45,615 bases of DNA from Salinivirgaceae bacterium. Its GTDB lineage: Bacteria; Bacteroidota; Bacteroidia; Bacteroidales; SZUA-534. Positions 31,472-34,126 of the stretch are shown here, piece by piece. The position numbers were made by a program, and so were the translations under genes. The notes beneath the pieces are model-generated. The model was not told the DNA's origin, made no database searches, and saw only the letters and a list, made by a program, of their open reading frames with translations. Within the stretch, counting starts at the first letter, position 1. Each line of letters begins with the position of its first letter. The DNA lies in the NCBI GenBank assembly GCA_017617355.1, contig JAFZWI010000076.1:1-45615 (forward strand), given 5' to 3'.

Positions 31472-32632
31472 TCACCTATTTCCCTTTGCCCGATTGTGCG
31501 TTTTGCAGAGCATCTGGCAGTTGCTGATGTCGGTTGCTCCGCCACGGCTCCACGCAGTAACGTGGTCGGCATCCATTTCTTTGAGTTGCCAAATTTTGTT
31601 TTTGTTATTGGTGTCAGATAATGCGCAAAGCGGACAGTTGCTTATGCCTTTTTCCTTTGCGTCGGCGGTTTGCTTTGCATATACACTTTTTATTACGCTC
31701 GGCTCAAATAATCTGATATTCAACAGACTCTTATCAACCTCGCCTCCTAAAATATACTCGAAAATTCCCTTCTTGTCCTCAACGTAATCATCGGCCATAA
31801 GAGTTTGAACACGCTCCGAAACTTTTGCTGGATTGTAAGCATTCTTGTGATAAAGTTCGTACATACGCCCCCACTCCAAACCACACATACAACTCTCTAC
31901 ATCATTGAAAACTGATGATACCCAATTTATTACGGTGTTGAAATACAACTTTAATTCGTTGATATTATTGTCGTAACGATGCTGACTCATATAACCGCTA
32001 ACATCGTTGCTTTTGCTAACCCACTGCAACGCACGCTCAAGAATCTCTTGCCGCTTAACATCTCCTTTAATGTAAGCCTTCCATTTTGAGACATTTGCGT
32101 TTTGTGAATTGCTAAACTCCTCTTTTGCAAGCGTTACAAATGGCCCTGAAAATATGGCGTTTAACTTTTCTTGCTCGTTAAGCGGCACACCGACAATATT
32201 TATCGTTTTGAACCACTCTTTTATCTCTACTTCTGTTCCCTCGCATTCGTAAACCAACAATTTGGTTTGCATAATCATTTCTTGCTGATTAGTTGCCAAA
32301 CCGCTGAAATACTGCTCCATACCATTGATTTTTATGGCGAAATTTCCTTTTACAAAACGACCAAGACTCGTTATTCGTTGCTGACCATCAAGCACTTCCA
32401 ATTGCCCACAATCAACCTTATTAAAGTAGATTAAACCTAACGGATAACCCTTCAAAACCGACTCAATTACAGCCACATCTTTTTTACCATCAGCATAGAT
32501 GTAATTGCGCTGATATTCAGGCTGAATTGTCAATCTACCCGAAAGTCCGAACAAACCTTTTCCTTCATATTCATTGTAAACAAATCCGTTACAAATTTCC
32601 TCAATCGTGTATTGTTTTAATTCGGTTATCAT
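31472..32632 (-). CDS. DUF262 and HNH nuclease protein, likely restriction component
   Basis: A 386-residue protein with two domains. The N-terminal part (about 1-150) is a DUF262 (GmrS-type, ParB/sulfiredoxin-like) domain, with IQPEYQRNY (36-44) and the hallmark [10 protein letters not shown] (81-90). The C-terminal part is an HNH nuclease: a CPLC zinc pair (333-336), [12 protein letters not shown] (354-365) with His357, then N371, C376 and HN at 379-380. All expected catalytic and zinc residues are present, so the nuclease looks active. DUF262 proteins of the GmrSD/BrxU type cut modified DNA; others pair with a methyltransferase. The gene is 17 bases after an EcoRI-type methyltransferase and almost certainly in the same operon, making it the likely endonuclease of a restriction-modification unit. 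Specificity is unknown. Confidence 0.85.
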
Positions 32633-32649: not shown

Positions 32650-33813
32650 TTATTGTTTTTTACGAATCAATATTTTTGCATAGCAACTTATCAAACGACC
32701 TGTTTCGTCTCTATAACATAGTTTACCACGACGAAAACCTTTATCTTCTTTGAATAAGCGCTTACAATCATCTGCCGACAGATTTGCGCTAATGCCGTAC
32801 GATATTCCTAATTCGCCACCATTGCCAATTCCAACGATTTCAAATTGTTCAGGACAATACTTATCCAAAAATGTAATAGGCACACCCATAACACCGTCAT
32901 AATCAGAAGGGATTGCATCAGTAAATGGCACTTCAATAGCGTCATAATTTTCATAATGGTAATACTTTTTACCTTTAACTTCCTTATGATTGCTAAATTT
33001 GATATTATCAGCCATAGTCATCAATTGCAATGGTTGGTGACGTCTTCCATGGTCAATATTTGTAAGCCAAATACTTGTTGAACGACCATAAACTTTTCCG
33101 TTTACAATTTTATAATTGCTACCATTCTTTCCATTTTTTACAAACTCTTCTTCAATACTTTTTGGAATATCAAACAGCAAATCTTCAGACATAGGGGTTT
33201 TACCCACCCATATTTTATTGTCTTTGATTAATGGAAAAACCTCTTTATATGAAATACAGTTTTTGTTGCCAATTATTAAAATGCATTTATCAGATTCCAT
33301 TAACCAAGCTAAAAACTCGCGAAACAGAGAAAATGGAGGATTAGTTACGATTATGTCTGCTTCATCACGCAGCCGTTTAACTTCATCGCTTCGAAAATCA
33401 CCATCTCCTTCAAGATACTGCCATTGCAAATCGTCGATGTCAATTTTGCCATTTGCATTAGTATCGTGGTCAAGCACAAATATTTTGCCGCAACGTTTCG
33501 ATTTGTCGAGATCGAAAATCGGATTTTCGGTTTCAAAAAGTGTTGGTTGCCAATCGGTTTTATACTTTTTGCTTTCAATTGCAAAACTCGTGCTAATGAG
33601 TTTCTTCAACCCAAAATTCTCAAAATTTTGAGCAAAGAATTTTGTAAAGTTGCTCCATTCAGGGTCATCGCAAGGCAACAGAACGGTTTTGCCACGGAAT
33701 ACATCTGGGTTGTATTCCAAATAGGCATTTACCTCCTTCTGAATATCAGTGTATTGTGTATAAAATTCATCATTTTGGGCTTTTTTGGCCACTACTAAAG
33801 TCGTATGCGCCAT
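32650..33813 (-). CDS. EcoRI-type adenine-specific DNA methyltransferase
   Basis: A 387-residue DNA adenine methyltransferase closely resembling M.EcoRI. Shared segments are [11 protein letters not shown] near the N-terminus, CDDPEWSNF (motif I region, 48-56), [21 protein letters not shown] (motif IV, NPPF, 158-161) and [16 protein letters not shown], then [16 protein letters not shown]. It transfers a methyl group from S-adenosylmethionine to adenine. The start at 33813 (MAHTT) aligns with the natural M.EcoRI start; TTG 33861 and ATG 33831 are possible extensions but would lie inside a palindrome. The family usually modifies GAATTC, but the target here is not proven. No EcoRI-like endonuclease is present; a DUF262-HNH gene follows. 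Coding sequence looks AT-richer than neighbours by eye, suggesting transfer. Confidence 0.9.
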
Positions 33814-33814
33814 A

Positions 33815-33846
33815 GTGTTTAATTTGTGCATTGCACCATTAAACAC
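33815..33846. promoter_or_regulatory. 32-bp palindrome at the methyltransferase start
   Basis: Outer arms GTGTTTAAT (33815-33823) and ATTAAACAC (33838-33846) are perfect 9-bp complements. Inner arms GTGCA (33826-33830) and TGCAC (33832-33836) are also complementary about T33831. It ends one base before the ATG at 33813. It could be an operator for a controller protein or an mRNA hairpin that covers the translation start; either would regulate the restriction operon. Confidence 0.65.
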
Positions 33847-33868
33847 TTTGAAATCAGGCAATAAGAAA

Positions 33869-34041
33869 GGCGCGAACCTTCCTACTCGCGTTCACGGGGA
33901 AGCCTGAGAAGAAACCCCGCCACCTCTCATAGTCTGGCCGCGCCAAAAGGCGCGAATCCTATATGAGAGATGTCGAGTATGCACAAAGCCACCCGTGAAC
34001 AATCAGCCTATTTCGGTTAAAAGAAACAGTTTCTCAGGCTT
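33869..34041 (-). ncRNA. Structured leader of the methyltransferase-HNH operon
   Basis: No gene lies in 33814-34167, but the region is dense with complementary segments. On the minus strand, in order, are X1 AAGCCTGAGAA (34041-34031), X2 GTTCACGGG (34000-33992), X3 TACTCG (33979-33974), X4 CTCTCATA (33969-33962), P CGCGCC (33954-33949), Q GGCGCG (33944-33939), X4' TATGAGAG (33931-33924), X1' (33910-33900), X2' (33898-33890), X3' (33888-33883) and R CGCGCC (33874-33869). P-Q and X4-X4' nest as one hairpin. X1-X3 and X1'-X3' are in the same order, so they cannot form simple nested helices. Local stem CGGGG (33919-33915) with CCCCG (33899-33895) places X1' in its loop. R is followed by TTTCTTATT, so Q-R would be terminator-like while P-Q excludes it. 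Direction is inferred from the operon it precedes; a structured-RNA or antisense role is unproven. Confidence 0.5.
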
Positions 34042-34118
34042 TTTCTTTTCGAACGCGAATAACAGTCAATGCTGATTAATAATATGTTATACTCTCGCAA
34101 AATGCGGAAGCAATGAAA

Positions 34119-34126
34119 CAAAGATA
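34119..34126 (-). promoter_or_regulatory. Possible -7 box for leader and restriction operon
   Basis: TATCTTTG on the minus strand matches TAnnTTTG exactly. It would start a transcript near 34113 with a leader of about 300 bases before the methyltransferase start. Only a weak T-rich stretch (TTATT) is found where a -33 box would be expected. Confidence 0.45.

Follow-up and report, generated by a model that had tools for sequence, protein, structure and literature searches.

A predicted pseudoknotted leader RNA with a hypervariable stem precedes restriction and surface-modification genes in Bacteroidales

The window analysed here is a stretch of 45,615 nucleotides from a Salinivirgaceae bacterium (assembly GCA_017617355.1, contig JAFZWI010000076.1). 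On its minus strand a structured element is followed, as the original prediction had stated, by a restriction operon consisting of an EcoRI-type adenine methyltransferase and then a GmrSD_N/HNH protein. The interval delimited for the element at that time (33869-34041, 173 nt) was too narrow, since conserved features begin with a promoter-like box (34126-34119) and continue as far as the start codon (33813-33811). Compared across homologs, the element is conserved and pseudoknotted, and the minus strand from about 34126 to 33811 is very likely a 5' leader RNA of about 300 nt, a prediction made because covarying long-range pairings reach the hairpin at the start codon. Features that had escaped the first reading are a hypervariable stem, a second partner for one strand within a terminator-like hairpin, replacement of the gene behind the leader, and membership in a multi-copy family. 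The leader and operon are laid out as follows.

34119..34126, minus strand: Bacteroidota-type -7 box TATCTTTG, candidate leader promoter (sequence and motif counts)
34067..34072, minus strand: 5' element GCATTG; conserved GCATT(A/G) immediately 5' of P1, in weak pairing with the start-codon hairpin loop
34051..34065, minus strand: P1 5' strand CTGTTATTCGCGTTC, pairing with the X3' segment (compensatory changes)
34031..34041, minus strand: P2 5' strand (X1) (own-versus-swapped test and shuffles)
34008..34029, minus strand: hpA hairpin, 34029-34023 with 34014-34008 (own-versus-swapped test)
34006..34010, minus strand: P4 5' strand TAGGC, overlapping the hpA 3' side (own-versus-swapped test)
33992..34000, minus strand: P3 5' strand (X2) GTTCACGGG
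33962..33977, minus strand: hpB outer stem 5' strand, hypervariable (comparison of members)
33936..33957, minus strand: hpB inner hairpin ATTCGCGCC-TTTT-GGCGCGGCC
33944-33936, minus strand: hpB 3' strand GGCGCGGCC, with a second conserved partner in the terminator-like hairpin
33915..33931, minus strand: hpB outer stem 3' strand, continuing into conserved GCGGGG
33900..33910, minus strand: P2 3' strand (X1')
33890..33898, minus strand: P3 3' strand (X2') CCCGTGAAC; its GAAC is common to the P1 3' strand
33882..33893, minus strand: P1 3' strand GAACGCGAGTAG (X3' and adjoining bases)
33861..33882, minus strand: terminator-like hairpin GGAAGG-TTCGCG-CCTTTC and U-rich tract (33864-33861)
33878-33869, minus strand: GGTTCGCGCC inside the terminator-like hairpin, alternative partner of the hpB 3' strand
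33855..33859, minus strand: P4 3' strand GCCTG, right after the terminator-like hairpin
33811..33850, minus strand: hp2 hairpin, 33850-33838 with 33823-33811, overlapping the likely start codon; loop AATGC at 33832-33828
32650..33813, minus strand: first gene behind the leader, EcoRI-type adenine methyltransferase (PF13651)
31472..32632, minus strand: second gene, GmrSD_N/HNH protein (PADLOC REase_II)

The homologs agree with a methyltransferase start at the ATG 33813-33811; an in-frame ATG is also present in the hp2 loop.

The element was originally described by three perfect helices in crossing order, X1, X2 and X3. Two of these were recovered on the minus strand: X1 is a perfect 11-bp match of AAGCCTGAGAA (34041-34031) with TTCTCAGGCTT (33910-33900), and X2 a perfect 9-bp match of GTTCACGGG (34000-33992) with CCCGTGAAC (33898-33890). 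Their order is that of a pseudoknot, and X1 covaries among homologs. Dinucleotide-preserving shuffles of the 173 nt gave any 11-bp perfect helix once in 3000, a 9-bp helix in 92/3000 and a crossing 11+9 bp perfect pair in 0/3000. The argument that chance was an unlikely source of the complementarity thus stands for the crossing X1/X2 pair and falls for X3, since 6-bp perfect helices averaged 3.0 per shuffle. X3 was rejected as a third helix: its 5' strand (33979-33974) lies in a variable region, is not conserved and is absent from the ortholog L005. Its 3' strand, within CGCGAGTAG, is conserved, and the partner that aligns with it is CTGTTATTCGCGTTC at 34065-34051, beyond the interval first reported; this helix is P1. 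As a whole, the strand at 33855-34110 folded better than 200 of 200 shuffles (z -4.77).

By DNA search, the element proved to occur twice in its own genome, and 8/148 genomes, own included, had matches. A covariance model built from 11 sequences (R1) gave matches at E<=1e-3 in 22 of 393 order genomes, the own genome included; in 16 of the 22 the E-value was below 1e-11. Among the six weak order genomes, inspection by eye found the full layout in L032 and a resemblance to a nested RNA class (below) in L033, with no such likeness in L031 and L035; L030 and L034 were left unjudged. Within the family, R1 matched 9/20 genomes with up to six matches each, weak and antisense matches counted. R1 also gave weak antisense matches over some of its own RNAs (e.g. 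L014, L044 and the window at 33890-34000 on the plus strand), because hpB is self-complementary.

Across named genomes, a pattern scan returned at least 118 loci, and R1 matched 63 of those listed at E<1e-10, including the partial or shortened matches L176, L181 and L203. Titles were seen for 80 of the pattern loci and 43 of the 63 matched by R1. Every one of the 43 was labelled Bacteroidales, Bacteroidia, Bacteroidetes, Paludibacteraceae, Salinivirgaceae or Bacteroidaceae, with a rumen, another part of the gut or feces of sheep, goat, yak, water buffalo or horse named in 25 titles. Stricter filters were applied in searches spanning >40 genomes. We collected 91 RNAs by covariance search, the window's included, and aligned them to R1 (alignment A2); their known titles were all from Bacteroidota. 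A third alignment (A3) was discarded for antisense matches and excess columns, and a second model (R2) gave weak hits outside the own order. Carriage by plasmids or phages was rejected, as the window RNA had no blastn match in a plasmid or phage collection and the covariance model matched 0/12 viral pattern loci. One viral contig (L236, IMGVR_UViG_3300035510_000130) carried the P1-P2 pattern twice, 238 nt apart, and was likewise unmatched by the covariance model.

Covariation among homologous leaders, proposed at the outset as a check on the fold, was found for X1, for the hpB 3' strand with the terminator segment and for P4. We compared the pairing energy of each RNA's own strands with that of swapped strands in 2000 permutations, a test that ignores relatedness; 89 of the 91 RNAs were parsed, with L039 and L043 dropped throughout. 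Strands of P2 (X1) paired at -16.9 kcal/mol when own and -9.8 kcal/mol when swapped, over 68 distinct strand pairs in the parsed RNAs and without permutations; the 31 core strings of this analysis include length variants of one core. The X1 test on A2 is free of model bias because R1 contains no X1 pairs. Own strands were also favored, with 0/2000 permutations in each case, for hpA (-6.02 vs -4.64 kcal/mol), the hpB inner hairpin (-13.38 vs -10.53), P4, which joins the hpA 3' side to the stretch that follows the terminator-like hairpin (-8.24 vs -5.99 kcal/mol), and the 5' GCATT element with the hp2 loop (-4.20 vs -3.79 kcal/mol, some loops being badly parsed). Three of four control combinations were near chance (687, 784 and 845 of 2000); in the fourth, the 5' element with the post-terminator segment, 1992/2000 permutations were at or below the own value, so that own strands paired worse than swapped ones. 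With this departure and relatedness left uncorrected, the permutation counts are not clean probabilities. P1 showed compensatory changes at two positions (columns 10/195 and 12/193).

Switching between folds, one of the behaviors first proposed, was borne out to the extent that alternative and mutually exclusive pairings are present, with covariation at the hpB 3' strand. P1 and X2 compete for GAAC at 33893-33890. RNAalifold, run on the first alignment, paired GCGGGG with CCYCGT and did not form P3, which we read as an alternative state. By eye only, ACGG/CCGT offered alternative pairings at the hpB base.

In most members the inner hairpin of hpB is of the form GCTCGCACC-loop-GGTGTGGGC, and the first part recurs in the terminator-like hairpin, in the window as the direct repeat AAAGGCGCGAA. 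The hpB 3' strand paired with the terminator segment at -16.40 kcal/mol when own and -14.13 when swapped (0/2000, relatedness ignored), and the control with the hpB 5' strand gave -5.03 vs -4.99 (687/2000). For the window RNA the two competing helices of the hpB 3' strand have predicted energies of -12.5 and -14.3 kcal/mol. A hairpin and U-rich tract before the gene are conserved, but the hairpin is weak (-8.2 kcal/mol for the terminator-like segment alone, compared with -34.6 kcal/mol for the whole of hpB) and the window's copy of the tract is interrupted.

The outer stem of hpB is hypervariable yet paired. Predicted folds gave it 10-23 pairs, with 88 different 3' arms among the 89 parsed RNAs. 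Stem identity averaged 0.67 in 44 RNA pairs that were >=95% identical outside hpB, with 39% of these pairs below 0.6, compared with 0.51 for random pairs; in the seven pairs identical outside hpB it ranged from 0.46 to 0.87. Because the stem boundaries were set automatically, these identities are noisy: L116/L156 share more of the arm than their value of 0.55 implies, and L014/L048 have the same stem. Leader RNAs do not usually combine such a stem with a constant scaffold, and the outer stem is probably either under diversifying selection or exchanged between copies. The leaders of L085 and L086 are near-identical save for the hpB stem and loop, which together with the C-terminal part of the methyltransferase make up the main leader and gene differences between these loci and had suggested that the stem tracks the methyltransferase recognition region. 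This was rejected, since L001 and L004 have the same stem, yet both variable methyltransferase regions differ, and L001 and L005 differ in their stems, with only one variable region differing. A guide to the RNA's own flanking genes was also rejected, as the longest matches were about equal for own and swapped stems (83 loci). We consider it quite unlikely that the stem serves as a sequence address, whereby a matching trans-acting nucleic acid from an invader or a partner RNA would open the clamp of that copy alone and release the gene behind it. If this were true, the family would be a set of RNA-sensing switches, each with its own trigger, before exchangeable phage-facing genes.

The position of the RNAs relative to genes was consistent. 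The motif TAnnTTTG, which we take to be the Bacteroidota -7 promoter consensus, was found <=120 nt upstream of P1 in 59/89 loci, compared with 4.9 expected from mononucleotide shuffles, after exclusion of 2/91 loci with too short an upstream sequence. A same-strand ATG open reading frame began within 260 nt behind 84/91 RNAs, the exceptions being L131, L149, L041, L185, L151, L070 and L071, and the mirrored upstream test gave 26/84. Starts lay 42-58 nt from the model end in 67/84 loci (median 47). By eye, hp2 ended a few nucleotides before the ATG in most loci, and a crude motif for its arm occurred <=16 nt from the ATG in 63/84.

We classed the 84 first genes by blastp cluster with scanned representatives, not protein by protein. 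Restriction or methyltransferase genes made up 72/84 by cluster: 47 EcoRI-type methyltransferases, an unannotated cluster of 11, five MmeI-type, two ResIII helicases, two N6_Mtase, and one each of Tsp45I, C5, D12, N6_N4 and a weak MmeI-type match (L154, under the Pfam cut-off). Enzymes of surface modification accounted for nine (four sulfatase/EptA-type, three GT2, one GT25 and one GDSL), and three first genes were unassigned; L158 and L139 were left unscanned. Restriction and surface modification may both be interpreted as phage-facing functions. The cluster of 11 was counted with the methyltransferases on the strength of an NPPY motif present in all nine members checked. Scans of four members in Pfam and NCBIfam, and of three in PADLOC, gave a single hit, a weak one in PADLOC (mad2, L046). 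These NPPY proteins (L138, L050, L058, L062 and relatives) recur behind the leader, are about 810 aa when complete, and several begin ...YENIREESLKLKVAADWF. They had no Pfam or NCBIfam match in the members scanned and are possibly an undescribed restriction-methyltransferase family. The EcoRI-type methyltransferases of the window (32650-33813), L004 and L005 are mosaic, with the middle and C-terminal regions replaced independently and the rest mostly similar; the two replaced regions are probably target-recognition regions.

At one site the gene behind the leader was exchanged almost exactly from start to stop codon. Downstream of a tRNA-Leu gene, the own-genome locus L081 and its counterpart L072 in a congener were 92% identical over 3.3 kb, a stretch that takes in the flank, the RNA and hp2 and stops 2-5 bases short of the start codon. 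One locus then encodes an NPPY protein of 815 aa and the other a glycosyltransferase of 266 aa; similarity returns at the stop codon of the first gene and 33-34 nt past the end of the second. A third genome (L098) carries other genes at the same site; its similarity to L081 stops 59 nt before P1, and the R1 search found no RNA there. Several copies of a short palindrome, CCCTCATTGAGGGA in RNA orientation, lie behind the exchanged gene in both L081 and L072.

A related RNA, in the own genome and elsewhere, has the corresponding helices nested rather than crossing, with a similar variable outer stem and inner hairpin by eye; the latter is of the GCTCACGC/GCGTGGGC type (e.g. L254, L266 and L252 at G000:C31, C30 and C15 of the own genome). 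A model of six nested RNAs (R3) matched 12/20 family genomes and, at E<=1e-3, 48/395 genomes of the phylum, own included. The 11 family genomes that belong to the own genus had 4-11 matches apiece, and a few of these matches are the crossing class itself (e.g. G006:C89, G004:C28). The nested RNAs often lie about 40-60 nt before an ATG, and judging by protein starts only, their genes encode secreted or BspA-like proteins, methyltransferases and others. One gene cluster stands behind RNAs of different classes. In the broader class the 3' strand of the inner hairpin also paired better with its own 3' element, which precedes the U tract (-15.83 vs -12.70, 0/2000; control 527/2000) in 40 of the 49 listed loci, nine having been omitted for short contigs, unclear coordinates or convenience. 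The two classes appear to be related, a view based on the shared module and weak cross-matches and not on a tree.

A gathering-score scan against Rfam 15 of the window and 20 loci of both classes returned tRNAs only. E-value searches gave four matches at E 1.5-8.1 in the window region, far under the cut-off, none at E<=0.5 in eight loci, and one tRNA and one sub-threshold snoRNA in 20 loci. The R3 matches in 48/395 phylum genomes suggest a large RNA family, no tested member of which is in Rfam 15.

Transcription attenuators of the antiterminator/terminator type rely on strands with mutually exclusive partners. The present layout is that of an attenuator because the two pairings of the hpB 3' strand exclude each other, and such a strand with conserved, exclusive pairings was found in both RNA classes, with non-significant controls in tests that ignored relatedness. 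The reading we favor, with somewhat better than even confidence, is that the leader is a cis-acting two-state switch of this kind for whichever restriction or surface gene follows. Transcription would start from the TAnnTTTG box; hpB, with its outer stem as a clamp, would hold its own 3' strand, the terminator-like hairpin would form and expression of the gene would be low. A trigger that prevents or opens hpB would leave the 3' strand available to the terminator segment and permit read-through. Both termination and its regulation are inferred. As in known attenuators, one strand has two exclusive partners, and one of these belongs to a hairpin that is followed by a U-rich tract and precedes the gene; unlike them, the leader is pseudoknotted, about 300 nt long, fitted with a hypervariable clamp and common to different, exchangeable restriction and surface genes, and neither a leader peptide nor a ligand was recognised in it. 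Several points stand against an attenuator. The terminator-like segment is weak and its U tract broken in the window. The stability of hpB demands a strong trigger and none was identified. P4, the 5'-element pairing and hp2 lie past the terminator-like hairpin, which fits a translational or structural role equally well, and a simple attenuator does not account for the hypervariability of the clamp.

Translational control, whereby the folded leader and hp2 would close or present the start codon and the terminator-like hairpin would be merely structural, is a rather unlikely alternative. It draws on the closeness of hp2 to the ATG, seen by eye in most loci and through the crude arm motif in 63/84, on the link that P4 and the 5' element make between the start-codon region and the pseudoknot, and on the report (PMC9976891) that Bacteroidia ribosomes do not recognise Shine-Dalgarno sequences. 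The U-rich tract after the hairpin and the competition of the hpB 3' strand for the terminator segment argue against it, as both are conserved in the two RNA classes and form the usual layout of a transcriptional attenuator.

We also find it unlikely that transcription normally ends at the terminator-like hairpin to yield a pseudoknotted RNA of about 250 nt that acts elsewhere, with the hypervariable stem giving specificity for a target or partner. A conserved hairpin with a U-rich tract at the 3' end, several copies per genome and a hypervariable stem that resembles an address on a constant scaffold would all suit such a trans-acting small RNA. However, the conserved P4 and 5'-element/hp2 pairings reach past the hairpin, spacing to the downstream ATG is tight, and stem arms matched the flanking genes, the only targets compared, no better than swapped arms did.

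A very unlikely reading takes the leader DNA as a recombination hot spot or the end of a mobile cassette that swaps restriction and surface genes, with the RNA fold secondary. The RNA and upstream flank that are 92% identical before different genes at one site, the third genome with other genes and no RNA, and the gene cluster shared between RNA classes are consistent with it, but homologous recombination on a conserved leader would suffice. An integron-type cassette would have a recombination site on either side of the swapped gene, and an integrase. A motif scan of 20 wider loci found the hp2-like motif at the leader only and none at the far end of the gene, no recombinase was recognised among flanking genes that were not systematically scanned, and covarying pseudoknot pairs require a function at the RNA level. 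Chance complementarity or an insertion remnant, the latter raised with the original prediction, can be practically dismissed: X3 is at chance level, but 91 members have covarying helices and the crossing pair arose in 0/3000 shuffles.

Among known RNAs, FopS sRNAs of Bacteroides are about 65-70 nt long, with a single-stranded 5' stretch (the R1 seed) and a terminator hairpin, and repress susC mRNAs in trans (PMC11697453). They too are paralogous RNAs in multiple copies in Bacteroidales genomes, whereas the present RNA is larger, pseudoknotted and placed at the start codon of an adjacent gene. Identity with FopS was rejected on length and structure, and FopS is in Rfam according to the same paper, with no Rfam match here. 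Flavo-1 (RF01705) is likewise a computationally found motif, widespread in Flavobacteriaceae (PMC9723704); its model has 76 positions, and it was rejected, as RF01705 had no match in the window nor in 20 broader-class loci at E<=1. STAXI is a pseudoknot-based motif near genes of DNA-handling proteins, but its pseudoknot repeats two or three times in tandem (PMC2864571), whereas the aligned members here are single units. A riboswitch would have a conserved ligand-binding core ahead of functionally coherent genes; the leader shows a conserved pseudoknot core, but its downstream genes have no evident common metabolite. Retron, DRT, type III toxin-antitoxin and AbiF ncRNAs are also structured RNAs beside phage-defence genes, but each of those RNAs is tied to one protein partner, and the present scaffold stands before at least ten protein families. 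No reverse transcriptase or Abi family was found among the representatives scanned, and no reverse transcriptase among the window genes. Our searches of an open-licence library turned up no study that describes such a leader. Overlap with this family is possible in PMC8040213, which catalogues candidate RNAs by the thousand, and in PMC9723704, which tabulates 64 structured 5' regions.

Should the proposed function hold, a single RNA-level switch would serve both restriction-modification systems and surface-modification enzymes in Bacteroidales, and it could be kept while the gene behind it is exchanged. This would bear on how newly acquired restriction systems are held in check in Bacteroidales.

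By eye, eight loci (L018, L111, L114, L115, L173, L211, L219 and L154) had an extra hairpin-like segment between the promoter box and P1. Seven of the eight carried AGAG in its presumed loop, and the segment is a possible additional domain of the leader.
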